36,157 bases of DNA, taken from contig JALWLL010000082.1 in NCBI GenBank assembly GCA_026996295.1, positions 2,815-38,971 on the forward strand, read 5' to 3'. This document shows positions 12,258 through 34,352 of this stretch, piece after piece. This DNA is from Sulfurimonas sp. Its GTDB lineage: Bacteria; Campylobacterota; Campylobacteria; Campylobacterales; Sulfurimonadaceae. The notes below the pieces were generated by a model. The model ran no database searches and had not been told where the DNA came from. It worked only from the letters and a program-made list of their open reading frames with translations. The translations under genes were made by a program, and so were the position numbers. Positions within the stretch are counted from its first letter, which is position 1. Every line of letters starts with the position of its first letter.

Positions 12258-12686
12258 GTGTCAAAGAATAATGATGAAATCAGTACTGAAGGCTTAACAT
12301 TTTTAGAAGATGGTGAAGTTTTGTATAGTGATTTGTACCTGTTGTCAGAAACAGATGAAAAGGGGATAGTTGAGTATGCAAGCGATTCTTTTTTAAAAAT
12401 AGCGAATCTAAAAGCAGAGGAGCTGATAGGGCAACCACATAATGTAGTTCGTCACCCGGATATGCCTCGTGCAGCATTTAAATCTCTTTGGGATGATGTT
12501 CAAAGTAAAGGTTTTTGGACAGGTTATGTAAAAAATGCTCGTAAAGGCGGCGGATACTACTGGGTATATGCAACGGTTTTGCGTTCCATAGATAAAAACG
12601 GAAAAACAAAGTATGTTTCCATAAGAATCAAGCCTTCACGTGAAGATATTAAAAAAGCTGAAGAGCTTTATGCAACACTAGATTAA
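12258..12686 (+). CDS. Stand-alone Aer-type PAS protein
   Basis: A 142-residue soluble protein that is essentially one PAS domain. The segment GQPHNVVRHPDMPRAAFKSL at 58-77, with R65, H66 and D68, is nearly the FAD-binding stretch of the E. coli aerotaxis sensor Aer, and the following WTGYVKNARKGGGYYWV also matches. Unlike Aer it has no HAMP, membrane or signalling domain. The start is GTG at 12258, 6 nt after GGGAGG; the upstream ATG at 12225 has no binding site. It is the first gene of the chemosensory operon, 18 nt before a receptor that lacks a sensor domain, so it probably supplies redox or oxygen input in trans. FAD versus haem cannot be decided by sequence. Confidence 0.88.
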   Translation: MSKNNDEISTEGLTFLEDGEVLYSDLYLLSETDEKGIVEYASDSFLKIANLKAEELIGQPHNVVRHPDMPRAAFKSLWDDVQSKGFWTGYVKNARKGGGYYWVYATVLRSIDKNGKTKYVSIRIKPSREDIKKAEELYATLD

Positions 12687-12704
12687 AAGGGAAAGGATTT
12701 TATA

Positions 12705-14591
12705 ATGGCATTAGTGAAAAAAAACAGTTCTAGTTCATCTCCTGCAATGATGGCTTCGGGAGGAGACAAACGTAAACAAAGAACGCTGGCAAAACAACAG
12801 CAGATCAGTGAAAGCATTGCCGGTGTTTCGATGACAATTCTTGAGAATGCACAAGAGAGTGTCAGTGCTATTGAAGAGTTAAAATCATCGATGGAGCAGA
12901 TCGCTACAGCTGCAGAGGAAAACAGTGGAGCAAGTGAACAGGCCCTTGAAAATGTAAGGGGGATCAATTCTAACGTAAATAGAATGAACTCCACAATAGA
13001 TACCGTGATATCATCTACGCTTACAACGGGTGACAATATCATGGCTTCCGTTGAAAAAATAAACGACTCTGTAGGCAGAATGGCAACGGCGGTAAAGGTA
13101 GCTGAGGAGTCTTCAACAAAAAGTGAAGAGCTCAAAGAAAGTTCACAAAATATTGGTGATGCGGTTGGATTTATTGCGAAAATTGCAGACCAGACAAACC
13201 TTTTGGCGCTCAATGCTGCCATAGAAGCAAGTCGTGCAAAAGAGCATGGAAAAGGTTTTGCAGTTGTAGCAGATGAGACTCGTGCTCTTGCGGGTGAAAG
13301 TGAAAAAAATGCTGAATTTATCTCCGAACTTGTCAACAAAATACAAGAGAGTATTGATAATATCATTAAAAGTATAGGTTCGACTACTACCATTATTGCA
13401 AATAACGGTAAAAAAGGGAACGCACTAAGCCTCAAAATGGAGGAGCTTACAAAGATTGCGGTTTACTCTGTTGAAGCAGCACGCAGCGTGAATACATATA
13501 CACAAAGGCTTGGTGATTTTGCTTCCAAGATCAACAATGGTTCTCAGGATATTGCCGCTGCATCTGCGGAGATCGCACTCTCGGTGGAGAAAACACTTAA
13601 CGGTATTGATGTCCAATCAGATGCACTTGCGCAAACAGAAGATGATATCAAAGAACTTTCATCACTGGCAGATGAGCTTAAATACTCTACAGATACCATA
13701 AAATCCGCTGAAGATATAGCGCTTTCAGCTGATACTATCGGTGCTTCCATGGATGATATCCAAAATGCCCTTGAAGATGTTACCCAAGCACTCAATCAGA
13801 TCGAATCCTCTTCCCATACAACCAACCAAAGAGCATTGACCAACAAGGAGATGATAGAAGCGGGTATTGAAGCTGCAAAAGATATCGATAAGCTTATTGA
13901 GATCGCTCGCAGAAACTTTGACCTGCTAAAGGTTTCGTTTAACAGTGTTAAAAATACAGTAGCGGAGATTCGTGAAGCATTTAGTGGTTCCATAACACAA
14001 GGGAATGAAGCTGCAACGGAACTTAATGTTATTGTCAAAGAGACAAAAAGTGTTGATAAAACCGTTGGAAACATTTCAAACTCGATTGTTCAACTCAATA
14101 TGCTTGCTATCAGTGGTTCCATAGAAGCTGCTCGTGCCGGAGACTTTGGGAAAGGTTTTGCGGTTGTTAGTGCCGATATCAGAAACCTTGCAAAAGACTC
14201 TGAGAGCAATACTGAAAAGATCAATGATATTGTTGAGTCTATGAATTCTGAGATAGACACCGTTAAAACGGACTGGAACAATCTTCTTGATTCTCAGGCA
14301 CAAGAGCAGTCATCGATTGATGGGCTTATAAATGACATAACAAAAATTACAGATATGCTCGTGGATCTGCTTGACAGATATACCGGACTCAAAGTGATCA
14401 ATGATCAAAATCTTGAGGGGATGAATCAGGTGATGATAGGGATCAGTGAGATCCAAAAAGCGGTAGAACTTAGTGCTAGAAATGCGATGGAGTCACGTAA
14501 AGCGAGTGAGCTTATTATTGAGACTGTGTCACATATCGGTGAGGGTGTAGAGGAGTTGGCTGTCATGGCTGATGAACTTCAACAGGGATAA
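12705..14591 (+). CDS. Soluble chemoreceptor with two signalling-hairpin tips (DosM-like)
   Basis: A 628-residue methyl-accepting chemotaxis protein with no membrane segment and no recognisable ligand-binding domain. Two separate hairpin tips are visible: 162-196 (DQTNLLALNAAIEASRAKE, then HGKGFAVVADETRALA) and about 459-496 (QLNMLAISGSIEAARAG, then DFGKGFAVVSADIRNLA). The second is more diverged. Each is flanked by long heptad-rich coiled coil. Two tips in one chain is the layout of V. cholerae DosM, which holds the two layers of a cytoplasmic array together. The N-terminus is Ser-rich and basic (K5, K6, K22, R23, K24, R26, K30). Strong site GGGAAAGGA upstream. Methylation sites are likely in EE/QE pairs but not assigned. 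Confidence 0.92.
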   Translation: MALVKKNSSSSSPAMMASGGDKRKQRTLAKQQQISESIAGVSMTILENAQESVSAIEELKSSMEQIATAAEENSGASEQALENVRGINSNVNRMNSTIDTVISSTLTTGDNIMASVEKINDSVGRMATAVKVAEESSTKSEELKESSQNIGDAVGFIAKIADQTNLLALNAAIEASRAKEHGKGFAVVADETRALAGESEKNAEFISELVNKIQESIDNIIKSIGSTTTIIANNGKKGNALSLKMEELTKIAVYSVEAARSVNTYTQRLGDFASKINNGSQDIAAASAEIALSVEKTLNGIDVQSDALAQTEDDIKELSSLADELKYSTDTIKSAEDIALSADTIGASMDDIQNALEDVTQALNQIESSSHTTNQRALTNKEMIEAGIEAAKDIDKLIEIARRNFDLLKVSFNSVKNTVAEIREAFSGSITQGNEAATELNVIVKETKSVDKTVGNISNSIVQLNMLAISGSIEAARAGDFGKGFAVVSADIRNLAKDSESNTEKINDIVESMNSEIDTVKTDWNNLLDSQAQEQSSIDGLINDITKITDMLVDLLDRYTGLKVINDQNLEGMNQVMIGISEIQKAVELSARNAMESRKASELIIETVSHIGEGVEELAVMADELQQG

Positions 14592-14606
14592 TATAGGGGA
14601 GCATAC

Positions 14607-15971
14607 ATGCAAATAGAAGAGATATTGATCATCAAAAACGGTTCTGAACATTATGGGATATCAACAGAAGATATTAACCAAATATCCAGAGTGCCTTCTT
14701 TGATGCCTCTTCCTCTGAGACCGGCAGGTGTCAGAGGACTTTGTGCTGTTGGCGGGAACATAGTGACTATGGTTGATATGAACCTTTTACTTGATATGAA
14801 CGAGGTTGATATTGAGTCAGATAAAAGCAGGTTACTGAGTTTAAATGCACAATACTCTTCAAACTCTTTGCTCGTAAGCGAGGTGTTTAATACTATTGAA
14901 GTCGATCAAAATAATATAGAATACATAGAGAACGAGAACGATCCTGTTGTTGCGATATATAAGCATGAAGATAAATTGATACAAGTTGTGGATTTAGAGC
15001 CTCTTTTTTCTAAAATCAACAGGGTAAATATTGAAGCCAAAGAGATCAAAAACGGTAAAGTTAAAAATGAGGTTGTCAAAGAGGAAGAATCAAACAGATT
15101 TTTAATATTTTCAATGTCCAATGAAAAGTTTGCCATAAATATAGAGTACTTAAGAGAGATTATTTTATCTGATATAGAGTATACAGAGATTATTGGAAGT
15201 TCAGAAGAGATTTTGGGACTTATCACTCTTCGAGATGAGCTGATCACAGTTTTAGATATGAGAAAATATTATAATTTTGATGCTATCAAAAAAGAGAGCA
15301 ACAGAATTTTGATCATCTCACATGCTAATAAGCAGATCGGTTTGTTGATAGATGAGATAATCGATATTAAAAATTTTCCTATATACAACATAGAGTATAT
15401 GAAAGAAAGATTTGAAGATAACAAAATTTCAGGTGTGATACATAACGGTGATTCTTTAATCTCCTTTTTTGATCATGAGGTTTTAGAGAAGATTTTTGAT
15501 GAGAATGAAACATTTATAGATATAAAAGATCAGCAAGATGATACTCAGGGTTCTGAGGATATAGCTATGGAAGTGATCGTTTTTAAACTTGCAGATAAAG
15601 AGTATGCTTTTGAAGTGGAGAATGTCGCCGAGATCATAGATGCGGTAGATACTACAAAAGTAGCATATACGGATGATTTTGTAGATGGTATTATAAATAT
15701 TAGAGGACAGATTATAACCATAGTTTCCTTGTTTGATAAATTAAATATAGAGACAAAGATAAGTGAAGATTCAAAAATAATTGTTTGTAGTTTACACGAT
15801 ACAAAAATAGGTTTTGTCGTGGACAGTGTAAGTGATATTCTCAATATAAAAAAGAGTGAACTAAGAGAGCAGGAGGATGAATTGTTCTCCAATGTTTTGC
15901 ATTTGAATAATGGAAAAAGATTAGTGTTATCGATGGATATAAACCAGATAATAGCGAGTGAGGAGATATAG
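14607..15971 (+). CDS. Triple-domain CheW scaffold protein
   Basis: A 454-residue protein built of three CheW-like domains in a row: about 1-135, 160-300 and 325-454. Each shows the pattern of a short strand, I..V..I, an RGL/LGLITLR/GIINIRGQ turn followed by ITVLDM or TIVSLF, and a second beta subdomain ending in DEIID or DSVSDIL. Linkers between domains are acidic or lysine-rich. A chain with three CheW units could bridge several CheA P5 domains or receptor tips in an array baseplate. Each domain has diverged, so not all need bind the same partner. It lies 15 nt after the receptor gene and overlaps cheB by 1 nt. Confidence 0.87.
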   Translation: MQIEEILIIKNGSEHYGISTEDINQISRVPSLMPLPLRPAGVRGLCAVGGNIVTMVDMNLLLDMNEVDIESDKSRLLSLNAQYSSNSLLVSEVFNTIEVDQNNIEYIENENDPVVAIYKHEDKLIQVVDLEPLFSKINRVNIEAKEIKNGKVKNEVVKEEESNRFLIFSMSNEKFAINIEYLREIILSDIEYTEIIGSSEEILGLITLRDELITVLDMRKYYNFDAIKKESNRILIISHANKQIGLLIDEIIDIKNFPIYNIEYMKERFEDNKISGVIHNGDSLISFFDHEVLEKIFDENETFIDIKDQQDDTQGSEDIAMEVIVFKLADKEYAFEVENVAEIIDAVDTTKVAYTDDFVDGIINIRGQIITIVSLFDKLNIETKISEDSKIIVCSLHDTKIGFVVDSVSDILNIKKSELREQEDELFSNVLHLNNGKRLVLSMDINQIIASEEI

Positions 15972-17035
15972 TGTCAAAAAAAGTACTTATAGTCGATGAT
16001 TCAGCATTAGTGAGAAAACAGTTAAGTGAGATGATTGCTACGCTTGGATTTGAGATCGATTTTGCAAAAAATGGTCAAGAGGCTGTGGATAAAGCAACAC
16101 AAGAGCAGTATGATGTTATTACCATGGATATCAATATGCCTGTTATGGACGGTATAGAAGCTGTACGCCAGATCATGCAAAAACGTCCAAGTGCCATTCT
16201 GATGATCAGCTCTTTAACAACAGGGGATGCTTCTATAACTATGGATGCTCTTGATCTTGGTGCTATTGACTATATAGCAAAGCCCGGAACAATGAATGTT
16301 GGTAAAAGGGAAAACAGGGATGATATTTTAGAAAAGGTGGAGTCTTTGAGCAAAATACCTCTTAGACGTCTGAAAAGACAAGCTTCAAGACCTGCCATAC
16401 GTGAGAGAAGAACTCCTCGTCCATCACGTGAAAGAAAAGTGCAGAGTGAAAGTTCAAAAGATATAGAAAAAGTGATCCTGATCGGTTCCTCTACAGGTGG
16501 ACCGGGTCTTATTGAGCAGATATGCTCTTCACTACCTGCAAACTATAAATATCCTGTATGTATAGTACAGCATATGCCTGAGCAGTTTACCCAGGCATTT
16601 GCACAGAGACTTGATCGTTCAAGTGCTCTGCCTATACATGAAAGCCAGCATAACATGGAAGTGCTTCCGGGCAATGTATATGTAGCCAGAGGCGGGGTTC
16701 ACATGCATTTTGCCAAAAAGGTATCAGGCAAGATAGTGATACGAGAAGATAAAAATAAAGGTGAAAACTTTTTTCAACCAAGTGTCAACGAGATGATGTT
16801 TTCTGCCTTGGAAGTCTTTAAACCTGCACAACTTGTCGGGGTGATCCTGACAGGAATCGGTGATGACGGTGCTGATGCAATGGTAAAGCTCAAGCAAGCA
16901 GGTGCCTATACTTTGGCTGAAAGTGAAGAAAGTGCTACTGTTTATGGTATGCCAAAAGAGGCATATGACAGAGGCGGTGTTATGGAACAACTTAATTTTA
17001 TGCAAATTTTGAAAAAAATTGCAACATTAAAGTAA
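15971..17035 (+). CDS. cheB: Chemotaxis methylesterase/glutamine deamidase CheB
   Basis: A 354-residue response regulator enzyme that removes receptor methyl groups. The receiver domain has D9/D10, phosphoacceptor D53 in MDINMPVMDG and K104. The methylesterase domain has the catalytic triad: S174 in GSSTGG, H201 in QHMPEQF and D299 in TGIGDDGA. The linker at 131-156 is strikingly basic, with ten Arg and two Lys in 26 residues, unlike most CheB linkers. Start is GTG overlapping the upstream stop, with AGGAG just before. No CheD gene is in the operon, so CheB may be the only deamidase. Confidence 0.95.
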   Translation: MSKKVLIVDDSALVRKQLSEMIATLGFEIDFAKNGQEAVDKATQEQYDVITMDINMPVMDGIEAVRQIMQKRPSAILMISSLTTGDASITMDALDLGAIDYIAKPGTMNVGKRENRDDILEKVESLSKIPLRRLKRQASRPAIRERRTPRPSRERKVQSESSKDIEKVILIGSSTGGPGLIEQICSSLPANYKYPVCIVQHMPEQFTQAFAQRLDRSSALPIHESQHNMEVLPGNVYVARGGVHMHFAKKVSGKIVIREDKNKGENFFQPSVNEMMFSALEVFKPAQLVGVILTGIGDDGADAMVKLKQAGAYTLAESEESATVYGMPKEAYDRGGVMEQLNFMQILKKIATLK

Positions 17036-17045
17036 GGAGACTGAG

Positions 17046-17669
17046 ATGGCTTTAGTTAAAAAGCATGAACAACAAGATGTTGAAGAGTTGCCGCAATTTG
17101 ATACGCTTGAAGATGCGATAGAGTTGTTTGAATCAGATGTAGATAATGAGATGAAAGATTATGTTGTTGAAGAGATTATTAAATTTCATAATGGTGCCAA
17201 ATATCTTATTTCATATATAAACAACGAAGATGCAGATAAAGGTATTTCAACAAAAGTGGCAACAGTTATAGCCAATATGGATCCAGAAGATGCTCCTATA
17301 GAAGAGATCATGGAGTTGTTAAAACTAAATAATGCTTATGTAAGAAACCTCGGTATCTCTATTCTCAGAGATTACGGAGAGGCGATCAAGTACTACATAG
17401 TAAAGTTTTTGATCGGAGATGACAGGGATTTGAGAATATTTGCTATCAATGTACTTGGTGATGTTAATTTTGCAGAATCAAGAGATATGCTATTAGAGCT
17501 TTTAGAAAAAGAGGATGATGTCAATGTCGCAATGACTGCCGTTGATTATCTGGCAGAGATCGGAGAAGAGGAAGATATAGCTCTTCTGGAATCTTTAAAA
17601 GAGCGTTTTAGCAGTGAGTTCTATGTAGAGTTTGCAGTGGATAGCGCAATAAAAATGATAAAGGGTTAA
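17046..17669 (+). CDS. HEAT-repeat protein of the chemosensory operon
   Basis: A 207-residue acidic helical protein. Residues 85-200 show HEAT-like helical pairs with the repeated pattern of a helix, short turn and LG.../A..yL.eiG (for example AYVRNLGISILRDYG, LRIFAINVLGDV, NVAMTAVDYLAEIGEE). The N-terminal 40 residues are separate and start MALVKK, the same six residues that start the soluble receptor of this operon, with different synonymous codons. HEAT proteins are protein-binding scaffolds; here it may link the array to CheB, CheR or ParA. Function is not known to me. The gene sits between cheB and cheR with gaps of 10 and 3 nt. Confidence 0.8.
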   Translation: MALVKKHEQQDVEELPQFDTLEDAIELFESDVDNEMKDYVVEEIIKFHNGAKYLISYINNEDADKGISTKVATVIANMDPEDAPIEEIMELLKLNNAYVRNLGISILRDYGEAIKYYIVKFLIGDDRDLRIFAINVLGDVNFAESRDMLLELLEKEDDVNVAMTAVDYLAEIGEEEDIALLESLKERFSSEFYVEFAVDSAIKMIKG

Positions 17670-17672
17670 GGT

Positions 17673-18503
17673 ATGGCATATCTTTTATCAAAAGAGAATT
17701 TCTCCAAGATTGGTGAGTTTATTTATAGAAAAAGCGGTATCTATCTTGAAGAAGATAAGCACTATGAGAAGTTGGCAAAATATATAGATAAACGCTCGGC
17801 AGAGTTGGGCTTTGATAATTTTAGAAAATACTTTTTTAAACTTCGTTTTGATGATAAAGAGGGTGCAGAGTTTCAAGAGCTTATGAATGCTATTACTGTA
17901 AATGAAACATATTTCTTTAGAGAAAAAGACCAGTTTGAAGTCCTTGTTAACAGAATACTTCCCGAGCTTCACAAAACGATGCCATCTTCAAGGCCACTGA
18001 GGATTTTATCTTCTCCCTGCTCAACAGGGGAGGAACCCTACTCGATCATACTCCATATAGTGGAAGAGGGGAGTGTTGTGGAGCAAAGAGACATAGAGGT
18101 TGTCGGTATCGACATAGATTCAACAGTTATAGAAAAAGCAAAAGCAGCAAAATATACGGAGCGTTCAGTTCATGCGATTCCAAAAAATATTTTAAACAAA
18201 TGGTTTAAAAAGAAAAGTCTCGGGTATGAACTTGGTGAAGAACTACAGGGAACAGTGGACTTTCAGGTAGCAAATGTTTTTGATAAAACACAGATGAGAA
18301 AACTTGGAAAGTTTGATGTGATCTTTTCAAGAAATATGCTTATCTATTTTGATGATGCTTCCCGTAAAGAGGTTGCAATGACATTTTACGATATGTTAAA
18401 CCCGGGAGGGTATGTTCTTTTAGGACATGCAGAGTATATGAGCCGTATCGTTTCTGTATTTAAAGCAAAAAAAATCGACAATACATTGATATACCAAAAA
18501 TAG
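17673..18503 (+). CDS. cheR: Chemotaxis protein methyltransferase CheR
   Basis: A 276-residue SAM-dependent enzyme that methylates receptor glutamates. The small N-terminal helical domain spans about 1-75. The catalytic domain carries ITVNETYFFRE near residue 75, SSPCSTGEEPYSI (SAM motif I region) near 110, the acidic VVGIDIDSTVI near 140, the FDVIFSRNMLIYFD near 215 and LNPGGYVLLGHAE near 240, all typical CheR motifs. The protein is otherwise standard and has no TPR extension or pentapeptide-tether features. Start ATG 3 nt after the HEAT gene, with AAGG before it. Confidence 0.95.
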   Translation: MAYLLSKENFSKIGEFIYRKSGIYLEEDKHYEKLAKYIDKRSAELGFDNFRKYFFKLRFDDKEGAEFQELMNAITVNETYFFREKDQFEVLVNRILPELHKTMPSSRPLRILSSPCSTGEEPYSIILHIVEEGSVVEQRDIEVVGIDIDSTVIEKAKAAKYTERSVHAIPKNILNKWFKKKSLGYELGEELQGTVDFQVANVFDKTQMRKLGKFDVIFSRNMLIYFDDASRKEVAMTFYDMLNPGGYVLLGHAEYMSRIVSVFKAKKIDNTLIYQK

Positions 18504-18512
18504 GAGAGAATT

Positions 18513-18884
18513 ATGCCGTTAGTAATATTTGTAGATGACAGTGAAACAGCTTTAGCCTCAACAAGAATGGTGACAAACTCCATGCCTATAGAGGTAAAAC
18601 AATATACACAGGCACAAGATGCCTTAGCTGAGATCCAAGCAGGTATGACACCGGATCTGATCATAACAGACCTTAACATGCCGGTGATGAACGGTTTTGA
18701 GTTTTTACAGGAGCTTCGCAAAGTGGAGGCAACGAAAAGAACACCGTGTTTGATGCTCACAACAGAAACAAAAGCGGAACTGAAACAACAGGGAAAAGCA
18801 CTAGGACTGACCGGATGGATCGTAAAACCATTTAATCCGGCTCAGTTAAAGCAGGCAATAGCAAGAGTTTTGAGACTCTCATAA
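18513..18884 (+). CDS. Single-domain response regulator, CheY-like (first of two)
   Basis: A 123-residue receiver with D8/D9, phosphoacceptor D53 in TDLNMPVMNG, the Thr of MLTTE and Lys of VKPF, so it should be phosphorylatable by the CheA of this operon. No output domain is present. The gene follows cheR by 9 nt with AGGAGA as ribosome binding site. Because two receivers are encoded, one may act as output and the other as a phosphate sink; sequence does not say which. Confidence 0.9.
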   Translation: MPLVIFVDDSETALASTRMVTNSMPIEVKQYTQAQDALAEIQAGMTPDLIITDLNMPVMNGFEFLQELRKVEATKRTPCLMLTTETKAELKQQGKALGLTGWIVKPFNPAQLKQAIARVLRLS

Positions 18885-18898
18885 AATAAGGTGTAATT

Positions 18899-19282
18899 AT
18901 GTTTTCTTCAATGAGCCATCTTTTAGAACATATACAAGAGATCGAAAAAGAGATTATTGAACTCTCTGAAAAATCCACATTGGTTTTTGGTGAACTTATA
19001 GAAAAAAATTCTATTGAGGTTGATGAACAGGTTACTCAAGTACTACAGCGTCAAGATATGATATCTCAGCAGCTCAATGCGACTGTAGATGCTATTGAAG
19101 AGGCAAAAAGAAGTATACAAAAGTGCCAAGTGGGTATACAAAACGATGCTCAGTCTGTGCAGAGGGAGCTTGAAGAGCTTGATCGGGCACTGCAAAATAT
19201 TCTTGTTAATGCCAAAGAGAAAAAAGAAGCGTATTCTGGATATTTTCATTCTCAAAATGATAATGAAATAGAATTTTTTTAG
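18899..19282 (+). CDS. Small coiled-coil protein, candidate CheZ-like phosphatase
   Basis: A 127-residue protein, almost entirely helical with heptad patterning in 1-110. The helix around residues 48-62 reads VLQRQDMISQQL: D53 and Q57 form a D-x3-Q pair preceded by Gln, the spacing of the CheZ active site (D143 and Q147 in E. coli, in QDLTGQ). The last residues, DNEIEFF, are acidic and aromatic, like the CheY-binding tail of CheZ. It lies between two CheY-like genes, the natural place for a CheY phosphatase. It is shorter than CheZ (about 200 residues), and the assignment rests on one motif, a tail and context. Otherwise it would be a structural coiled-coil protein of unknown role. Confidence 0.6.
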   Translation: MFSSMSHLLEHIQEIEKEIIELSEKSTLVFGELIEKNSIEVDEQVTQVLQRQDMISQQLNATVDAIEEAKRSIQKCQVGIQNDAQSVQRELEELDRALQNILVNAKEKKEAYSGYFHSQNDNEIEFF

Positions 19283-19290
19283 GAGTAATT

Positions 19291-19656
19291 ATGTCAACAA
19301 TAATGGTAGTAGATGATTCAAAAACAGTAAGAAATTATCATGGTTCAATACTCAAATCGATGGGTCTTGATGTTTTAGAAGCTGAAAACGGTATGGAAGC
19401 ATTGGAAAAAAGTCTCAACGAAGAGGTGGACATGTATTTGGTTGATGTTAATATGCCTATTATGGACGGTTACTCTTTTGTGCAGGATCTTAGAAAGCAA
19501 GATGCTCATAAATTTGTGCCTGTCATTATGATAACAACACAGGCCAAAGAGGAAGACAAATTAAATGCTTACAAGGTTGGTGCAAATCTTTTTGAAACAA
19601 AGCCTATAAAGCCAAATCAGCTACAAGCATATATAGACATTTTAGTAAAGAGCTAG
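19291..19656 (+). CDS. Single-domain response regulator, CheY-like (second of two)
   Basis: A 121-residue receiver with D8/D9, phosphoacceptor D52 in VDVNMPIMDG, Thr of MITTQ and Lys of TKPI. It is complete and should accept phosphate from CheA, whose gene starts 9 nt downstream. Its alpha4-beta5 face differs from that of the first CheY-like protein, suggesting a different partner. The nature of the output (motor or other) cannot be read here. Confidence 0.9.
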   Translation: MSTIMVVDDSKTVRNYHGSILKSMGLDVLEAENGMEALEKSLNEEVDMYLVDVNMPIMDGYSFVQDLRKQDAHKFVPVIMITTQAKEEDKLNAYKVGANLFETKPIKPNQLQAYIDILVKS

Positions 19657-19665
19657 GGGGATAGT

Positions 19666-22380
19666 ATGGATCCGTTATTAGAACAGTTTTTAAGTGAAGC
19701 AAGAGAAAATTTAGCATTTATAGATCAGAACATAGAGGAGATCGGCGGTGATGACCCTGAACTTCTCAACTCCGTATTTCGTGCCGCACATACACTCAAA
19801 GGTGGGAGTGGTATTGTCGGGTTTGATTCTGTAAAAGATATTACACACCATGCAGAAGATCTTCTGGATATGCTTAGAGCCGGAAAAATTGACTTTGCCG
19901 ATAGTATGACAGAAGCACTTTACAACGCTTTTGATGAGGTTATGAACCTTGTGGAGGCTGCCGAAGAGAGTGGTGATATCGTTGAAGCTGATGAAGATAC
20001 GGTTGCGATGATTATTGAAGATCTTAATACTCAGATGGGAAAAACAGCAAAGGTTGAGACAAGCTGGGAAGTTCCTTTTTTACAGGTGGATAATGTTGAG
20101 GATGTTGTCAATATCCCACTTACAACGCTTAGAGGTGTTGATTCACCAAAGTTGGCGTTTGTAAATCCGCAGCTTGATGAGGAGTTTTGTGCGAAGGATA
20201 ATTTCTATGCTGTTGTTTTTGATATAGATGAATCATGTATGGTATATGGGAATGATCCGGTGTATACACTCTCACTTCTTGGTGATAAAGTTCGTGGTGT
20301 TTACTCTTGTATGAGTGATGAAAATGCAAAGTCTGTTTTAAGTGGCATAGATGATGAAGATGGTCTGCTTCTGAAGTCAAAACTCGTGGCTTACATATAT
20401 GCAACATATGAAGATATAGAAGATTCTCTTTTTAACTTTATAGATGAATTACAGCTTTTACCTTTAGATATTGTAACACTCTTAGGTGTAAGCACCGGAG
20501 AGAGCGGACATCAAATAGATCTGCTGAAAGAACTTGCAAATGTGAGTGACAATGATAAGGCAAGCATAGTTGAAAAAGTGGAAAAGTCGATGGAACTTGT
20601 TGGTGTAGAAACACTTCAGTACGCGCAACTTCAACGCTTCTTAGATATAGCCGGACTGATTAAAGATGAGGGTATTGTAAAACTTCATAGTTTCTTTGCA
20701 AATCTTTACAAGGGAGAGGTCTATAAGGGCTCACAAGATATACAAAGCGAGACTCCAACTACTATAGAAGAAAAAGCTACACAAGAACAAGTACAAGAGA
20801 GTACTACAGAAGATCTGCAGACGCTAGAGGTAAGTGCAGATGTTCAAGATGTACTTGATGGTATGATGGAGCAACAATACAAAGCTCTTGATATGATAGA
20901 AAATGAGGATGATCTGCAAAGGGTGATCGTTATTATGGATAAAATGAGAAAGTATCTACCTCAAATACCGGCATCATTTAGTTCTAAAGAGGAGATACAA
21001 AGCTTTTTATCAGAGCAACTTGGTATTTCACAAGAGGAGAAAGAGCCTCAAGAATCTCAAGAAGCTCAAGAGGTTTCAGCTCCCCCTGCAGAGCAAAAAG
21101 TTGTTGAGCAGATTGAAAAAACACCACAGGTAAAAGTTCCCAAAAAAACTGCTCCAAAAGAGGAGAGTAAAAAAGCTGTTGTTGGAAAAACTGTGAAGAT
21201 AGACCAGGAGTCGATCGACTCGCTTATGAATGTTGTAGGGGAGCTGCTTGTTGCTAAAAACTCTTTGCCGTATCTTGCCGATAATGTTTCAGAAATGAGT
21301 CACGACATGATAAAACGTGAGATCATGGAGAAGTATATTTTTATCAACCGTTTGTCTGAACAGCTCCAAGATCTTATCATGGGTATGAGAATGTTACCTA
21401 TCTCATATGTGTTTGACAGATATCCTAAACTTGTTCGTGATATTGCCAAAAAACTTGGTAAAAAAGTGAAACTAGAGATGGACGGCGGTGAAACAAAACT
21501 CGATAAGAACATGATCGAGATGTTGGCTGATCCAATGATTCATATTATGAGAAACTCCCTTGATCACGGTATCGAAACACCCGAAGTAAGAGAGCAAAAA
21601 GGTAAAAACCCTACAGGAAAAGTTACCTTGAGTGCTTATGCCCAGTCTGACAGGATAGTTATAGAGATAGTAGATGACGGTGCGGGGATTAATGTTGAAA
21701 GAGTTGCAAACAAGGTTCTTGAAAAAGGGCTGATGACACATGAGCAGATCGATGCGTTGAGTGAAGATGAGATGGCAGAACTTGTGCTTCTTCCAGGACT
21801 CTCTACAGCAGATGAGATCAGTGAGTACAGTGGTCGCGGTGTTGGTATGGATGTTGTAAAAAAATCTATTGAGAGCTTTGGCGGCAGTATCAAGATAAAG
21901 ACAAAAGCAAACCAAGGTACTACGATCACCTTGGCGATACCTGTTTCTTTGGCTGTAACATCACTTCTGCACATTCAAATGAACGATATTCACTATGGTA
22001 TCCCTATGGACAGTGTCAGCGAGACTGTGAAGCTTGAGCGTGATGAGATCGAGTATTTACATAATGAACCTTTTGTTTATATTCGCGGTGAGGTTATTCC
22101 GCTGCTCTTTATCAAGTCGATGCTTAATGAAGAAGCTATGGAGAATGAACCACTTTCTATTGTAGTGCTCAACATAAAAGATAACCTTTTAGCTGTTGTT
22201 GTCAACAAATTTTTGGGTCAGTTGGATGTTGTGCAAAAACCGCTTGTGGGTATTATGGAGAACCATCCACTTTTTAGCGGTACTGCACTTCTTGGAAATG
22301 GAAAGATCATCATGGCAATCGATCCTATAGGACTTTTGGGAATTTCGCAGAAATTAAAAGAAGATATACAAGTAGCTTAA
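19666..22380 (+). CDS. cheA: Chemotaxis histidine kinase CheA, long form
   Basis: A 904-residue kinase, about 250 longer than E. coli CheA. P1 (HPt) holds H42 in RAAHTLKGGSG. Residues 145-280 form an extra domain of the type found in other long CheAs (FYAVVFDIDESCMVYG, then DPVYTLSLLG). A low-complexity acidic and Gln-rich linker spans about 360-500. P3 dimerisation starts near 507 (DQESIDSLMNVVGELLVAKN), P4 kinase has the N box MIHIMRNSLDHG near 625, DDGAGI near 670 and GRGVGMDVV near 725, and the P5 CheW-like domain fills 760-904. There is no C-terminal receiver. It would phosphorylate both CheYs, CheB and possibly the downstream regulators. Confidence 0.95.
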   Translation: MDPLLEQFLSEARENLAFIDQNIEEIGGDDPELLNSVFRAAHTLKGGSGIVGFDSVKDITHHAEDLLDMLRAGKIDFADSMTEALYNAFDEVMNLVEAAEESGDIVEADEDTVAMIIEDLNTQMGKTAKVETSWEVPFLQVDNVEDVVNIPLTTLRGVDSPKLAFVNPQLDEEFCAKDNFYAVVFDIDESCMVYGNDPVYTLSLLGDKVRGVYSCMSDENAKSVLSGIDDEDGLLLKSKLVAYIYATYEDIEDSLFNFIDELQLLPLDIVTLLGVSTGESGHQIDLLKELANVSDNDKASIVEKVEKSMELVGVETLQYAQLQRFLDIAGLIKDEGIVKLHSFFANLYKGEVYKGSQDIQSETPTTIEEKATQEQVQESTTEDLQTLEVSADVQDVLDGMMEQQYKALDMIENEDDLQRVIVIMDKMRKYLPQIPASFSSKEEIQSFLSEQLGISQEEKEPQESQEAQEVSAPPAEQKVVEQIEKTPQVKVPKKTAPKEESKKAVVGKTVKIDQESIDSLMNVVGELLVAKNSLPYLADNVSEMSHDMIKREIMEKYIFINRLSEQLQDLIMGMRMLPISYVFDRYPKLVRDIAKKLGKKVKLEMDGGETKLDKNMIEMLADPMIHIMRNSLDHGIETPEVREQKGKNPTGKVTLSAYAQSDRIVIEIVDDGAGINVERVANKVLEKGLMTHEQIDALSEDEMAELVLLPGLSTADEISEYSGRGVGMDVVKKSIESFGGSIKIKTKANQGTTITLAIPVSLAVTSLLHIQMNDIHYGIPMDSVSETVKLERDEIEYLHNEPFVYIRGEVIPLLFIKSMLNEEAMENEPLSIVVLNIKDNLLAVVVNKFLGQLDVVQKPLVGIMENHPLFSGTALLGNGKIIMAIDPIGLLGISQKLKEDIQVA

Positions 22381-22393
22381 GAAAGGTTGTACT

Positions 22394-23158
22394 ATGACAG
22401 ATTTGATCGTCTTTGGTATCGGAAATAATCGATATGCTCTTAAAATTGACAATATTCAAAGGATTATTCAGTCCGTTGAGTTGACGGATATTCCAAATGC
22501 ACATGAACTTATCGATGGGATGATGTCCTATGAAGGCAAGGTCATAAAAGTTTTAAATTTTCGTAAGTTGATTGCTTTGCCGATGTATGAAGATGAATTA
22601 CGAAAAAAGTTTGCAGAGTTAAAGGTTGCTCATCAAAACTGGGTGGATGAACTTAGAGATTCCATCTATAAGGGAGTACCTTTTACAAAAACAACAAACC
22701 CCCATAAATGTGAACTTGGCATTTGGTTAGATGGTTTTAAATCTGTTGATGAGGTGATAACAGCCATACTCAATGAACTTGTAAATAATCATAAACAGTT
22801 GCATATGCTTGGTGCTGAAGCTTTAGAAGTATATAATAGCGATATTGAAAAAGCCAAAGAGATTGTAGATCAAGAAGTGGAGTTAAAATTTCATCAGACT
22901 ATGGCAGCAATCGATACGTTTATAGCCAAGTTGAGCAGTGTTGCAAACTCTTTGCAAAAACTGATACTCTATGAAAAAAATGAAAAATATTTTGCCATAA
23001 AAGTGGATACGATTGAGGATATTGCACATATTGAAGAAGATGCTGTTATGCGTTCAGAGGAATCACACGACTTTGGTGAACTTCTGGAACTTGAGGGTGT
23101 TTTAGATATGGGCGGTGTTTTGATAAATGTTATAAAAAATATAGATATTCCAAATTAA
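22394..23158 (+). CDS. CheW domain split by an inserted CZB zinc-binding domain
   Basis: A 254-residue protein. Residues 1-65 are the first half of a CheW domain (LIVFGIGNNRYALKIDNI, then MSYEGKVIKVLNFRKL). Residues 70-185 are a helical CZB domain with its 3-His/1-Cys zinc set visible: H80 in HQNW, C106 in HKCELGIWL, H133 and H137 in HKQLH. Residues 188-254 resume with the second CheW subdomain (LILYEKNEKYFAIKVDTIED). CZB domains bind zinc and sense zinc or hypochlorous acid in chemoreceptors and diguanylate cyclases. Here the sensor sits inside the coupling protein, so it could change array assembly or kinase coupling directly. Gene lies 13 nt after cheA. Confidence 0.85.
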   Translation: MTDLIVFGIGNNRYALKIDNIQRIIQSVELTDIPNAHELIDGMMSYEGKVIKVLNFRKLIALPMYEDELRKKFAELKVAHQNWVDELRDSIYKGVPFTKTTNPHKCELGIWLDGFKSVDEVITAILNELVNNHKQLHMLGAEALEVYNSDIEKAKEIVDQEVELKFHQTMAAIDTFIAKLSSVANSLQKLILYEKNEKYFAIKVDTIEDIAHIEEDAVMRSEESHDFGELLELEGVLDMGGVLINVIKNIDIPN

Positions 23159-23167
23159 GGAGATATA

Positions 23168-23437
23168 ATGGCAATTACATATGAAGCGAATGAAGCAATC
23201 TTTTCATCAGTGATATATGAAGATGAGATTCCTAAGTTCAGGGATTTTTTACAAGAAAAAGCACCGGATGAAGTTCTTTTGAACTTTGAAGAGTGTGAAG
23301 ATGTTCATTTGGCTGTGTTGCAGCATATTATGGCATATAAAAAAAATTATACCTGTACATATAAGTTTGGTAATGAAAAAAAGCTCTTTGAGACAGTTCT
23401 AAAAGGATTTGATACGAGTGAAAACCATTGTAATTAG
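23168..23437 (+). CDS. Small protein overlapping parA, possibly STAS-like
   Basis: An 89-residue soluble protein. The alternation of predicted strands and helices (IFSSVIYEDEIPKFRDFL, DEVLLNFEECEDVHLAVL) resembles a compact alpha/beta fold of STAS type, and the stretch NFEECEDVHLAVLQHI looks like a conserved core, but I do not recognise a named family. It has a good AGGAGAT ribosome binding site and its last 20 nt overlap the parA coding region, so the two are translationally coupled. Context makes a regulator or adaptor for the ParA ATPase, or for the array, the best guess. Confidence 0.65.
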   Translation: MAITYEANEAIFSSVIYEDEIPKFRDFLQEKAPDEVLLNFEECEDVHLAVLQHIMAYKKNYTCTYKFGNEKKLFETVLKGFDTSENHCN

Positions 23438-24158
23438 TAATCGTAAAGGTGGTTCTGCAAAAACAACGACAGCTGTTAATATTGCAAGTGGTTTGGCAAA
23501 ACAGGGTTCTGTGTTACTTTTAGATTTTGACACACAGGGACATGCTTCCATCGGTGTCGGTTGTGAACCAAATGAGCAACTGGGTGTTCATTCTATTTTT
23601 ACGGGAACAACGCTTAGTGAGACCTTTATCCCTACAGTTCATGAAAACCTGACACTCTCTCCCGCACTCGCTTTTTTTGATGTATATGAATACTCTGATC
23701 TAAGAGGAGTACTGAAAAGTCGTTTTAAAAGGGAAAAAATAGCAGAGTTTTTTGACTATTGTGTGATCGATACTCCCCCAACCTTTGATGCACTTTTAAA
23801 AAATTCCTTGGAAGTTGCCGACAGTGTTGTAATCCCTTTTGTTCCACACCATTTAGGTGTAGTTGCAGTGGGACAGATGCTACGTGCCGTGTATCAAAGT
23901 GCTTCTCATTTTGAGCGTGAAATCGCGGATGTGTCTATTTTGCCGGTAATGTATAACCCTCATATCAATGAGCATAAAGACTCAATCGCCAAAGTGAAAA
24001 CATCTTTTGGTGAAGAAAAACTGCTCTCACCCATAGGTGTAGATATTAAACTCGCACAACAGTTTGAATCAGGCTCCCCCATCATTTTGGATACAAAACG
24101 ATCTAAAGGGCTCAAAGATTATCAACGATGTGTTGCAGAATTACTTAAAAGACTGTAG
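23418..24158 (+). CDS. ParA/MinD-type ATPase of the chemosensory operon
   Basis: A 246-residue deviant-Walker ATPase. The A motif is NRKGGSAKTTTAVN, with signature K10 and K15; the usual GKTT glycine is Ala here. Walker A' is LLLDFDTQG and Walker B lies in YCVIDTPPTFDA. There is no N-terminal DNA-binding domain and no ParB or parS nearby, so it is an orphan of the type that positions cargo (R. sphaeroides PpfA for cytoplasmic chemoreceptor clusters, Vibrio ParC for polar ones). The start chosen is GTG 23418, 10 nt after AAAAGGA and giving MKTIVISNRKGG; the TTG at 23409 is too close to that site. Likely cargo is the soluble array. Confidence 0.88.
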   Translation: MKTIVISNRKGGSAKTTTAVNIASGLAKQGSVLLLDFDTQGHASIGVGCEPNEQLGVHSIFTGTTLSETFIPTVHENLTLSPALAFFDVYEYSDLRGVLKSRFKREKIAEFFDYCVIDTPPTFDALLKNSLEVADSVVIPFVPHHLGVVAVGQMLRAVYQSASHFEREIADVSILPVMYNPHINEHKDSIAKVKTSFGEEKLLSPIGVDIKLAQQFESGSPIILDTKRSKGLKDYQRCVAELLKRL

Positions 24159-24160
24159 CG

Positions 24161-25687
24161 ATGAATAGTTCCCATTCTATAGATTCTCAATTAAAAATTT
24201 TAATTTGTGAAGAGGATCATAGAGTGCTTAGAAGGCTCGGAACTTGGGTTAAAGCGATGGGCGATGAAGTATATACGAGTGATGACGGTATCCATGCACA
24301 AGAGCTTTTTAATGATGTCAAGCCCGATATCGTCCTTGTTTCTCCGGGACTAAAAAGTATGGGTGGCATTGAGTTTATAGAAAAAGTAAAACAATCACAC
24401 CCTTCTCAGGCCATTGTTTTGATGCTAAGCAGTGATGTGGATGCCAATGTTTTCAAACTCTCTATCGATCTGCAGGTGGATAAGTACCTGAACAAACCTG
24501 TGGATGCAACACTTTTGTTTAATACTATCGAAGCTCTTTCAAAAGAGAAACTGTGGCATGAAGATTATAAGGTGCAAAAGCAGCTTTTACAGGACTATAA
24601 AGATGCGATAGATCTCTCTTTTAGCGTTACCAAGCATGACAAGAAGGGAAAAATATTTTATGTCAATGATTCTTTTTGTAAGAAAACACATCTCTCACAT
24701 AAAGAGGCTATGCAGGGGGTGATCAACCCCCTTGACAATAAAAATGCAGATATGGAACATGTGTGGCGTGAGCTACGTGAGAACCATATCTATAGAGACA
24801 GACAAATATTTAAGCTGGATGATAAACAGGATCATATTATCGATATAACTGCGGTGGCTATTTTAGATATGAACAATGAGATATCTGAATTTCTTGTTTT
24901 TAGTAATGATGTCTCAGAAGTTGTATATGCTGCAAGAAAAATAAAACAGCAAGAGATTGATCAGAAGTTACAAAAGCTTGAACATGCAAAAGAGGTCAAT
25001 AAGATCAAAGACTCTTTTTTAACGGTCTTTACCCATGAGCTTAAAACTCCGCTCAACGCAATTATAAACTTTTCAGAGTATGTCAATAAACATCTTGCAA
25101 AAGAGGAGTTTAAAAAACGCGACACACTTATAGATCAGGTATCACAGATCAATGCCAGTGGATGGACAATGCTTGATATGATCACGAACCTGATCGATGC
25201 TATGAAACTCAAAGACGGTATGTTAGAGCTGCATAGAACAGAAGTTACTCTTAACAATGTTGTTGAGATGATCCTTAAAAAACATGCGGTGGAACTTGAG
25301 GGGATCAAGGTTATCAAAGCATATAAGAAAAACTATACCATCTATTCTGATGAGCTTCGGATGAAACAGATACTAAACAATCTAATCACAAATGCGATAA
25401 AATACTCTCAAAGCACTATAGTTATCGTTATAAAAGCCAACCAAGAAGAGTTTAGTATCGAGGTTCTTGATGATGGAGAAGGTTTCAGCGATAAACAGAG
25501 TGCTATCAAGCTTTTTGAGCAATCAGGTGAAGATGATATGACAAGAACGGCAAAAGGTGCCGGTGTCGGACTGTATATTGTAAAAGAGCTATGCAGTCGG
25601 CTTGGTTATAAGGTTGTTATAACAGACTCCAAAGAACTAGGTGGTGCAAGAGTGCTTATAAGAGGAAAGAAGGATATAGAGTTGTGA
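24161..25687 (+). CDS. Hybrid sensor kinase: degenerate receiver, PAS, histidine kinase
   Basis: A 508-residue soluble protein. Residues 12-130 form a receiver fold, but the phosphoacceptor position is Ser (S61, in VLVSPGLKSMGG), so it cannot be phosphorylated in the usual way, although E17/E18/D19 and the Lys of NKPV remain. A PAS-like domain follows (about 150-260), then a helix, a HisKA domain with H292 in FTHELKTPLNAI, and an HATPase domain with NNLITNAIKYS, DDGEGFSD and GAGVGLYIVKEL. No membrane segment is present. It starts 2 nt after parA and overlaps the next regulator gene by 4 nt (GTGA), its probable phosphorylation partner. Confidence 0.9.
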   Translation: MNSSHSIDSQLKILICEEDHRVLRRLGTWVKAMGDEVYTSDDGIHAQELFNDVKPDIVLVSPGLKSMGGIEFIEKVKQSHPSQAIVLMLSSDVDANVFKLSIDLQVDKYLNKPVDATLLFNTIEALSKEKLWHEDYKVQKQLLQDYKDAIDLSFSVTKHDKKGKIFYVNDSFCKKTHLSHKEAMQGVINPLDNKNADMEHVWRELRENHIYRDRQIFKLDDKQDHIIDITAVAILDMNNEISEFLVFSNDVSEVVYAARKIKQQEIDQKLQKLEHAKEVNKIKDSFLTVFTHELKTPLNAIINFSEYVNKHLAKEEFKKRDTLIDQVSQINASGWTMLDMITNLIDAMKLKDGMLELHRTEVTLNNVVEMILKKHAVELEGIKVIKAYKKNYTIYSDELRMKQILNNLITNAIKYSQSTIVIVIKANQEEFSIEVLDDGEGFSDKQSAIKLFEQSGEDDMTRTAKGAGVGLYIVKELCSRLGYKVVITDSKELGGARVLIRGKKDIEL

Positions 25688-27006
25688 ATATATTAATAGT
25701 TGATGATAACAGAAATAACAGAATGATACTTAGACTTCTTTTGGAAGATTATGAGGAAGAAAATGAAAATGTCAGCTTTGAGATAGAGGAAGCTGAAGAT
25801 GGTTTGATCGCAGTTGAAAAATGTAGAGAAAACAGTTTCGATATCGTGCTGATGGATATCATGATGCCAAATATGGATGGTATTGAGGCGACGAAGATTA
25901 TTAGAGAAGAGAATCAAAAGATTATGATCATTGCGGTCTCGGCGGTAGATGACAGCGAAAGAAAAAAGCTTATATTAAACAATGGTGCAGAAGATTATAT
26001 TTCCAAACCGGTTAATTCTGATATATTTATCAGTAGAATTGCGAACTACATCACACTCATAGAAGCAAGAAGCCATAAGAGAAGCAATCTGCAGGGTGTC
26101 AATCTTTTTACACAAGAGATCTTTTGCTGGCAAACGAAGTTTTTTATCACTTCTGAAGATGCACTTTCAGAGTTTTGGGAGTACTTTTTACTTGGTTCAG
26201 AACAAAAATATGATGATTTGAGCGATGTGGTGCGTACTGTTTTTGCTATAGCGGATATACAGGTTCGTCTTGGTAGTGAGAGTGAAATCATTATAGAAGA
26301 TTCGGAAGAGTCAAAGTTTTTTACATTAACTATGATTGATGCATTGCCTCCAAAGGTTTTAGAGTTGACACTGAAGAAAAACCAGATTGAGTGTGCGCAT
26401 ACAATCGCTGATGGCAAGATATCTTTTGAGTTGAAAAAAATCATCTCCGTGGAGGAGACAGCACTTCAAGAGGAGGTTGTTGTTGCTCCTGTAATCGCAC
26501 AAGAGGAGGAGACGGTTGCTTCCCCTGTAGAGTTTACCCATTCGGAGCAAAATCTGCAAGTGTTTGATTATTTGGATGCCGATGATCTGGACGAGCTTGA
26601 AGAGTTTACAGCAAAACTAAACTCACTGATGTTAGTTGTCGGAAGTGGCGGGATTACAGAAGAGGAAGTGACTGAAATCTATACATATCTGGAAAAACTT
26701 GGTTCTATTCTTGCAACGTACAGCGAGGTGTATCCGATCTCAAAAGCATTGAGTGAACTTTCAAACGATATGGCAACTCATGTGGAAGAGTTTGTGCAAA
26801 ACTCAGAAGCACTTGGACCGATGTGTAAAGCTTTTAGCAATGACCTCTCAAACTGGATAGAGATGAGTTTTCATACCGGAGCGCCAAGTAGTGACTTTAT
26901 GAACGACACTATTGTCGTGAACTGTCAGACTATCGGAGGGATGTTGAAAATGGATGAAGCTCCGGCTGATGGTGGCGATGACTTTGATGATATATTTGAT
27001 TTTTAA
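25684..27006 (+). CDS. Response regulator with long unknown C-terminal region
   Basis: A 440-residue protein. Residues 1-120 are an intact receiver with D7/D8, phosphoacceptor D58 in MDIMMPNMDG and Lys of SKPV. Residues 140-265 form an alpha/beta domain that I do not recognise (EIFCWQTKFFITSEDALSEF). An acidic, low-complexity linker follows and residues 315-420 are helical. The protein ends in a very acidic, aromatic tail, DDFDDIFDF. No DNA-binding, GGDEF or HD-GYP output is visible. GTG start overlaps the upstream kinase gene by 4 nt, so the two should form a phosphorelay. The output is unknown and may act by protein binding. Confidence 0.82.
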   Translation: MNILIVDDNRNNRMILRLLLEDYEEENENVSFEIEEAEDGLIAVEKCRENSFDIVLMDIMMPNMDGIEATKIIREENQKIMIIAVSAVDDSERKKLILNNGAEDYISKPVNSDIFISRIANYITLIEARSHKRSNLQGVNLFTQEIFCWQTKFFITSEDALSEFWEYFLLGSEQKYDDLSDVVRTVFAIADIQVRLGSESEIIIEDSEESKFFTLTMIDALPPKVLELTLKKNQIECAHTIADGKISFELKKIISVEETALQEEVVVAPVIAQEEETVASPVEFTHSEQNLQVFDYLDADDLDELEEFTAKLNSLMLVVGSGGITEEEVTEIYTYLEKLGSILATYSEVYPISKALSELSNDMATHVEEFVQNSEALGPMCKAFSNDLSNWIEMSFHTGAPSSDFMNDTIVVNCQTIGGMLKMDEAPADGGDDFDDIFDF

Positions 27007-27020
27007 AAGAGGTGTGCCAG

Positions 27021-27227
27021 ATGTATAAGGTAAAGGTTGAGAACACATGTCGATGTTTTATCAAAGGTGGCTTTGCAGAGGTGCAGGAGTTTGCAAGCAA
27101 GGAAGAAGCCCAAAAAGAAGCCAAGCATCTTATCGGTGTGATGCGAAATACATTTTGTCAAAAACATGAGTTTGCTCTAAGTGAGCAGTTTGGTGATTTT
27201 ACGATCTACATCAAGCCACGGGGATAA
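27021..27227 (+). CDS. Small conserved-looking protein, unknown function
   Basis: A 68-residue protein with cysteines at about 10, 12 and 46 (TCRCF and TFCQKH). The start ATG 27021 follows AAGAGGTG by 6 nt; a GTG at 27012 would add three residues and overlap the binding site. It lies 14 nt after the response regulator and is the last plus-strand gene before kdsB, so it is probably part of the same transcript. The two-Cys segment might bind metal, but I recognise no family. Confidence 0.65.
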   Translation: MYKVKVENTCRCFIKGGFAEVQEFASKEEAQKEAKHLIGVMRNTFCQKHEFALSEQFGDFTIYIKPRG

Positions 27228-31524: not shown

Positions 31525-31881
31525 TTATTTAATCCAGCCTTTAACATCATTATAATTTTCAACACCATCTATTACATTGATAGACTCAGTAACATTCATA
31601 TTTGTATTTACATTTATTTTCAATAAGTTAAACATAGCCTCTCCTTTTTGTGAAAACTCACTGCTATTTACATTATCTAATCTGTTCATTCCACGACCAA
31701 GCCCATTAAATCCATCTACAGCATTATTACCTATTTCAGCTTTTTTGCTCCAAAGAGCTTCTAAACCTTTACCTAAAGTGTCAAACTCCGCATTAAACAT
31801 ATGCACAAACGCACCAGTCATAGCACCATTAGCAAACTTACCACCTGTTGCTTCACTTACTGTTCCTGATACTGTTGCCAT
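31525..31881 (-). CDS. Orphan polymorphic-toxin C-terminus, cassette 1
   Basis: From the ATG this is 118 residues: the shared pre-toxin block MATVSGTVSEATGGKFANG to HMFNAE, then an unshared toxin part (FDTLGKGLEALWSKK, then NVTESINVIDG) of about 85 residues. Homology to the block continues upstream of the ATG in frame to about 31984 (GESARAGSWSGFAASGFSVG) without a start codon, and a TAG at 32002-32004 closes the frame. It is therefore the tail of a larger toxin gene left without its 5' part. The toxin family is not recognised. Expression as a separate protein from the internal ATG (weak GGGGAGA site) is possible but unproven. Confidence 0.65.
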   Translation of the reverse strand: MATVSGTVSEATGGKFANGAMTGAFVHMFNAEFDTLGKGLEALWSKKAEIGNNAVDGFNGLGRGMNRLDNVNSSEFSQKGEAMFNLLKINVNTNMNVTESINVIDGVENYNDVKGWIK

Positions 31882-31984
31882 TATAAGTGTTCTCCCCGCA
31901 AATCCACCATAGCCATTTGTTCCTACACTAAATCCACTAGCTGCAAACCCCGACCAAGAACCTGCTCTTGCACTTTCTCCTTGA
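31789..31984 (-). repeat. Pre-toxin coding repeat, copy in cassette 1
   Basis: About 196 nt encoding GESARAGSWSGFAASGFSVG through HMFNAE. It is nearly identical in protein to the copies in cassettes 2, 3 and 5, with mostly synonymous differences and a few substitutions (SWSG for FWSG, TNGYGG for TKGYGG). It is the most diverged copy. Such blocks act as recombination anchors for swapping toxin tails. Confidence 0.85.
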
Positions 31985-32005
31985 TCTTTAAGTTTTATCG
32001 GCTAT

Positions 32006-32224: not shown

Positions 32225-32226
32225 AA

Positions 32227-32754: not shown

Positions 32755-32798
32755 ACCAGCATTAATATATCCACCTTCTCCTTGATTGAAAAAAATTT

Positions 32799-32993: not shown

Positions 32994-32994
32994 A

Positions 32995-33425: not shown

Positions 33426-33431
33426 GCCTCT

Positions 33432-33515: not shown

Positions 33516-33563
33516 ATTTATTTTTTATTGGCATCTTTTTTCCTTTTTTTTGTATATCACTTC

Positions 33564-33776: not shown

Positions 33777-33780
33777 TCAT

Positions 33781-34350: not shown

Positions 34351-34352
34351 CT

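Follow-up and report, generated by a model that had tools for sequence, protein, structure and literature searches.

An F9-class chemosensory operon with a candidate positioning ATPase in Sulfurimonas

Does an uninterrupted series of chemotaxis-like genes in a Sulfurimonas genome encode a cytoplasmic chemosensory array of its own, and is that array of a known class? The series occupies positions 12258-27227 of the 36,157-nucleotide stretch analyzed here (the window), which is part of contig C82 of a 2.1-Mb draft genome rated 100% complete. It comprises sixteen open reading frames (ORFs), all on the plus strand in the ORF list of the window. The markers of the F9 chemosensory class are DosM, a receptor with two signaling domains in tandem, and a triple CheW protein (PMC9321776, PMC7534058). 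Full F9 systems have been reported in 64 of 2781 species and partial ones in Nitratiruptor and one Nautilia (PMC9321776). The studied example, Vibrio cholerae cluster I, forms a two-layer cytoplasmic array 35 nm high (PMC7534058), and even there little is understood of what F9 arrays do.

Class and conservation of the operon

Both F9 markers are present in the window. Its DosM contains two MCPsignal stretches, with tips at residues 183 and 483, and has no transmembrane segment and no recognized sensor domain, while Pfam and alignments with relatives place three CheW stretches in CheW3. The genes cheA, cheB, cheR, and cheY all lie in the same cluster, as a full F9 system requires. Phylogenetic classing, run for CheA as a tree of 29 sequences that took in only the CheAs of F9 loci and one F3 CheA, placed the window CheA among those of Sulfurimonadaceae F9 loci, with the F3 CheA of its own genome outside. 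Because the operon has the DosM and CheW3 markers and a CheA that groups with F9 CheAs, it is, as judged from its sequence, a full F9 system and not a new class. We consider it quite likely that this system builds a membrane-free, double-layered array that receives its inputs from separate proteins and is placed by ParA.

The sixteen genes are as follows.

12258..12686, plus strand: stand-alone Aer-type PAS protein of 142 residues; GTG start with GGGAGG upstream (Pfam PAS_3, 8dik)
12705..14591, plus strand: DosM, soluble double-tip chemoreceptor; MCPsignal twice, tips at ~183 and ~483, N-terminus MALVKK
14607..15971, plus strand: CheW3, triple CheW adaptor (three CheW stretches, alignments of relatives)
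15971..17035, plus strand: CheB with receiver (Pfam, whole-genome search)
17046..17669, plus strand: HEAT-repeat protein (HEAT_2, 2e-14); N-terminus MALVKK
17673..18503, plus strand: CheR (Pfam, whole-genome search)
18513..18884, plus strand: CheY1 (Response_reg)
18899..19282, plus strand: D-x3-Q helical protein with QxQDxxxQQL and tail IEFF (17-sequence alignment, AlphaFold)
19291..19656, plus strand: CheY2 (Response_reg)
19666..22380, plus strand: CheA of 904 residues with Hpt, long linker, dimerization, HATPase, and CheW domains, without receiver (Pfam)
22394..23158, plus strand: CheW-CZB protein with a CheW half domain, zinc-binding CZB, and a second CheW-like stretch (CheW and CZB matches)
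23168..23437, plus strand: small 89-residue protein (sm89), weakly STAS-like (hhalign 97.9% to ~80-residue kin)
23418..24158, plus strand: F9-type ParA ATPase with deviant Walker A KGGSAKTT (Pfam AAA_31, Soj structures)
24161..25687, plus strand: hybrid kinase, receiver-PAS-HisKA-HATPase, an optional insert (Pfam)
25684..27006, plus strand: response regulator (RR) with receiver, unknown alpha/beta domain, helical domain, and tail DDIFDF (Pfam, alignment, AlphaFold)
27021..27227, plus strand: 68-residue protein (p71; 71 residues from GTG 27012) with a conserved Cys, kept before kdsB in relatives

The intergenic distances are, in order, 18, 15, -1, 10, 3, 9, 14, 8, 9, 13, 9, -29 (-20 if ParA starts at GTG 23418), 2, -4, and 5 nucleotides; the start codons of ParA and of the last small protein are uncertain. 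Pfam recognized PAS, MCPsignal, three CheW domains, CheB with a receiver, HEAT_2, CheR, and two receivers, and in the later genes CheA (Hpt, H-kinase_dim, HATPase, and CheW), CheW with CZB, a ParA-type ATPase, receiver-PAS-HisKA-HATPase, and the RR. No convincing Pfam family was found for the D-x3-Q protein, sm89, or the last small protein. The preliminary description had read this stretch as a near-gapless plus-strand series of sixteen genes with these domains, encoding all parts of a soluble DosM-type chemosensory system along with a ParA of its own, and with PAS and CZB on separate proteins; the ORFs, the gaps of at most 18 nucleotides, and the domain matches bear this out. The operon is flanked on the left by flhA and rpsO and on the right by a convergent kdsB, flhA and kdsB being names that we take from family knowledge. 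Farther along the window, on the minus strand (31525-35035), four ORFs with a common MATVSGTVSEATGGKFANGAMTGAFVHMFNAE (one with a longer start) continue into differing C-terminal parts and look like a row of displaced polymorphic-toxin tails.

Among 86 double-tip DosMs drawn from several phyla, some of whose loci come from one genome, 85 have their two tips exactly 300 residues apart, and the remaining one has them 299 apart. This constant spacing is a new observation. It fits a rigid strut, which predicts the thickness of the array, and DosM would span two CheA/CheW3 baseplates, as is known for other F9 arrays. Judged by residue count, the ~150 residues of each arm would fit the length of 44H receptors.

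Several points weigh against the reading of the operon as a ParA-placed, double-layered F9 array. The two-layered cytoplasmic array is predicted here from the genes, and 300 residues drawn as one straight helix would measure an estimated ~44 nm, versus the 35 nm of V. cholerae (PMC7534058). CheZ was not among the matches listed for the D-x3-Q protein, our candidate phosphatase, in profile and fold searches. About one in four of the other F9 genomes examined also has no F9-type ParA; the class can therefore do without it.

CheW3 was found in 52 of 135 Sulfurimonas species; nearly four in ten species of the genus would thus have an F9 system with a single F9-type receptor, separate sensors, and a dedicated ParA. 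A draw of genomes across the phylum gave CheW3 at 44% identity in one genome, from another genus of the family, and a scan of genome contigs gave about a dozen more loci from Sulfuricurvum and related organisms. Nearly every locus of readable length shows this gene order, including some 30 Sulfurimonas loci beyond the window and loci of Sulfuricurvum. A chance grouping of the genes is therefore very improbable, and their expected conservation as a unit in relatives is confirmed. The order of the CheW-CZB and sm89 genes is swapped in four relatives, and a few lack RR or p71. The hybrid kinase, initially counted in the core set, does not belong there: it is present in only three relatives among those readable that far. 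ParA stands ahead of PAS-DosM-CheW3(-CheB) in three species; in the two that could be read upstream, the operon is permuted, with HEAT..ParA first. These permuted loci (L049 and L050, with L025 and L030) run HEAT-CheR-CheY-CheY-CheA-CheW/CZB-sm89-ParA and then PAS-DosM-CheW3-CheB, and the D-x3-Q protein, RR, and p71 were not found in them. Two CheW-CZB genes flank the sm89 gene in Sulfuricurvum loci L058, L059, L061, L064, L065, L067, and L071. Another Campylobacterota genome has a partial F9 set (L047, 7588-13179; DosM, CheW3, CheB, and CheR) in which an unrecognized 180-residue protein lies between cheB and cheR, the place that HEAT takes elsewhere.

In F9-less Sulfurimonas species, the operon is absent as a unit from the flhA-rpsO-kdsB site: of twelve such species, nine have flhA-rpsO-kdsB with no operon gene separating rpsO from kdsB; in two, unrelated genes occupy the site; and one (G403) has a cheB'-cheR pair. 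This clean presence or absence at one chromosomal site provides natural controls.

The gene set was also taken for a combination with no known precedent, and this was not supported. DosM with a triple CheW defines F9 (PMC9321776, PMC7534058), and CheW-CZB is a known, though rare, CZB architecture (PMC8262984). F9 clusters of Alpha-, Beta-, and Gammaproteobacteria likewise have HEAT between cheB and cheR, an ~80-residue protein after cheA, and F9-type ParA; those of Desulfobacterota and Atribacterota share HEAT and ParA. Plasmid-borne F9 clusters (Methylosinus, Methylobacterium, Sphaerotilus, Eleftheria, and Azospirillum) read DosM-CheW3-CheB-HEAT-CheR-CheY-CheA-small protein, with ParA next in line in Methylosinus and Methylobacterium, and gammaproteobacterial and desulfobacterial genomes show a similar theme. 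The combination is not unique, since HEAT, the STAS-like protein of 80 to 90 residues, and ParA are also found together with F9 genes in other phyla, and a HEAT/ParA pairing peculiar to this genome was rejected. ParA and HEAT are instead usual but little-described parts of the F9 class; we found no paper discussing HEAT proteins in F9 clusters in a search that left most subscription literature outside. The earlier interpretation is thus right in kind and overstated in novelty. What is new here is an N-terminal tag, the fixed strut, and possibly shared adaptation enzymes, including the remnant in G403.

The N-terminal tag of DosM and HEAT, and ParA

DosM and HEAT both begin with MALVKK in the window. 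By a strict pattern, this tag is present in Sulfurimonas loci on 36 of 41 DosMs and 39 of 39 HEAT proteins, and on 2 of 472 proteins of the other families of those loci. The corresponding counts are 12 of 12 and 13 of 13 in Sulfuricurvum and its kin and 11 of 24 and 10 of 22 in distant phyla, against 3 of 559 background ORFs (a few loci in these counts stem from the same genome). Related forms (MSLVRK/MALTKA, MAIVKK/MSIVKK, and MALKKT/MGLKKK, with start codons judged by eye) are found on both proteins in distant short-HEAT loci in which both ends are readable, and the HEAT tag is absent in the long-HEAT loci L073, L075, L076, L114, L115, L120, and L122. The DNA pattern for MA[LF][VIM]KK matched the genome itself only at DosM, at HEAT, and at a third site that we rejected as a gene, a frame of seven codons contained within another ORF. 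Likewise, the single-tip receptors that adjoin F9 clusters have no tag and were rejected as carriers. A tag of the MAL[VIM]KK type that is shared by DosM and HEAT across phyla, and that occurs on almost no other proteins, is a new observation and offers a practical way to approach a component of F9 systems that has yet to be described. Its presence on two unrelated proteins suggests a single reader and, because HEAT carries the same N-terminal tag as DosM, HEAT probably binds the partner of the DosM tag.

The ParA of the window matches Soj structures (E ~1e-22) in addition to AAA_31, and its deviant Walker A motif is evident in the alignment. No ParB is encoded among the sixteen operon genes, making this an orphan ParA ATPase inside a che operon. 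Such genes are common: a 2010 report counted ParA genes in the che operons of 77 of 206 species (PMC2829493). By analogy with PpfA, this dedicated ParA probably positions the array on the nucleoid and would place or divide it there. Where present, F9-type ParA scores 314-354 bits, with the next ParA at 215 bits at most; by our own count, it is found in ~13 of the 18 F9 genomes outside Campylobacterota that could be judged.

ParA itself could be the reader, in which case the tag would be a ParB-like peptide that docks to ParA and stimulates it, and DosM and HEAT would be two cargo adaptors of one ParA. The tag is basic, lies at the extreme N-terminus, and in DosM precedes a Ser/Gly-rich stretch, and the N-terminus of TlpT acts in this way on PpfA (PMC3964821). 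Every Sulfurimonas F9 locus complete enough to judge has ParA, and for two loci with the clearest tag pair that seemed to be without one, an F9-type ParA lies farther down the same contig (G737) or elsewhere in the genome on a different contig (G621). However, four genomes with a tagged DosM and/or HEAT (G754, G984, G894, and G704) have no F9-type ParA, their best matches scoring 100-214 bits versus 314-354, and long-HEAT F9 loci often have ParA yet an untagged HEAT. Because of these four genomes, we regard ParA as a possible but, on balance, doubtful reader. A receptor N-terminus acting as a ParB-like partner is compatible with the shared tag, yet the tag is kept in some genomes without F9-type ParA, and we rejected the reading that the tag is a plain mark of the proteins that this ParA handles.

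It is less probable still that the basic N-termini bind nucleoid DNA directly, with ParA secondary, as FrzCD attaches to DNA via a basic N-terminal tail (PMC5716589). The first 30 residues of DosM are indeed rich in Lys and Arg, but the tag occupies residues 1-6 as a short, fixed motif, unlike a diffuse basic tail, and the N-terminus of HEAT is acidic after it. The tag may also be read by a universal F9 partner.

Adaptation enzymes, inputs, and accessory proteins

In a whole-genome search, the CheB of the operon was the only CheB found and its CheR the only CheR match over the cutoff. The genome has ten or so further receptors with canonical tips and, on contig C31, separate CheW-domain genes including a second CheA. 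CheB and CheR would adapt DosM and, as no other such enzymes were found in the genome, probably the F3 receptors too. In F9-less G403, the receiver-less cheB' and cheR between rpsO and kdsB (L144, 1216-2646) are intact, and no further CheB or CheR was found in that genome. Their products share 58% and 64% identity with the F9 proteins, against ~34-35% with other CheB and CheR proteins; because of this far higher identity, the pair is a remnant of the F9 operon, and a relocated F3 pair was rejected on the CheR values. The lone CheB/CheR pair of the window's operon makes crosstalk between cytoplasmic and flagellar arrays testable. That the operon proteins join the F3 array without a separate lattice, the operon being a modulator of the flagellar F3 system, is very unlikely: the location of the only CheB and convincing CheR and their survival in G403 after loss of the rest would fit, but the full CheA, the CheW3, and the DosM with its conserved spacing and its own kind of tips speak for an independent lattice, as does the second CheA on C31. 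As a tentative and rather doubtful extension of the F9 reading, one partner, possibly ParA, would read the tag on both DosM and HEAT and so couple assembly to positioning, with the operon also supplying the F3 adaptation enzymes.

DosM-type tips were found in no other receptor of the genome. DosM, the sole F9-type receptor found, lacks a sensor domain, so signals most likely enter through other proteins: redox through the Aer-type PAS protein, and zinc or oxidant through CheW-CZB. The lone PAS matches the Escherichia coli Aer PAS 8dik (E 1.1e-28) and has the motifs QPHNxVRHPDMP and WxGxVKN; we propose that it is a flavin adenine dinucleotide (FAD) redox sensor that would signal to DosM as CetB does to CetA. 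CheW-CZB, built into the baseplate, would report zinc or oxidant.

CheA would phosphorylate CheY1 and CheY2, between whose genes lies that of the D-x3-Q protein. In the 17-sequence alignment, QxQDxxxQQL and the C-terminal EFF are invariant, and AlphaFold predicts three helices and a disordered tail, with EFF following the disordered linker. This resembles the build of CheZ, but no kinship was detected in the profile and fold searches. The D-x3-Q protein is proposed as a minimal CheZ-like phosphatase that would probably dephosphorylate CheY1 and CheY2. The relatives of sm89 are the ~80-residue proteins after cheA of other F9 clusters; its resemblance to STAS comes from STAS_2 matches below the cutoff (two of 16 kin, with E 0.05 at best, and one distant relative at E 0.001), and a search of PDB with sm89 returned nothing useful. 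For RR, the receiver filled the match list of the fold comparison, which gave nothing for the domains beyond it.

Conserved acidic-aromatic tails end two otherwise unrelated operon proteins, the D-x3-Q protein and RR, in the latter as DDIFDF in 40 of 41 sequences; these tails are perhaps CheY-docking peptides. Stand-alone proteins in other F9 loci that by eye resemble the C-terminal helical domain of RR (L039/L069, 134-811; L106, 8171-8620) end in similar tails, EDLELF and EDDFMF.

Comparison with known systems

V. cholerae cluster I (DosM VC1403, CheW3 VC1402, and CheA VC1397) is likewise a full F9 system with a soluble double-tip receptor, a triple CheW, and CheA (PMC7534058). Relative to its published description, the Sulfurimonas operon adds the lone Aer-type PAS, CheW-CZB, the D-x3-Q protein, and RR, and whereas the V. 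cholerae array has at least one further receptor, DosM is the only F9-type receptor found here. Other F9 clusters (Methylosinus, Methylobacterium, Sphaerotilus, Azospirillum, and Desulfamplus; L076 and L100-L104) share the order DosM-CheW3-CheB-HEAT-CheR-CheY-CheA, usually with the ~80-residue protein after CheA and often with ParA. They differ in that no lone PAS or CheW-CZB was seen beside the cluster, some are without ParA, and many have an extra single-tip receptor and another CheY.

CheOp3 of Rhodobacter sphaeroides also has an orphan ParA, PpfA, adjoining a soluble receptor, TlpT, whose N-terminus acts on PpfA (PMC3964821). Its description names neither a double-tip receptor nor a triple CheW, and the ParA-receptor contact demonstrated for PpfA and TlpT is an analogy here. 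In CetA/CetB, the bipartite energy-taxis system of Campylobacter jejuni (PMC2628428), a PAS protein separate from its receptor mediates Aer-like sensing; in contrast, DosM has no membrane anchor, and its proposed pairing with PAS follows from gene order. The Campylobacterota F3 system (cheVAW) is present in the same genome, as the second CheA with its CheW-domain neighbors on C31, and differs in having its own CheA and canonical-tip receptors, outside the operon.

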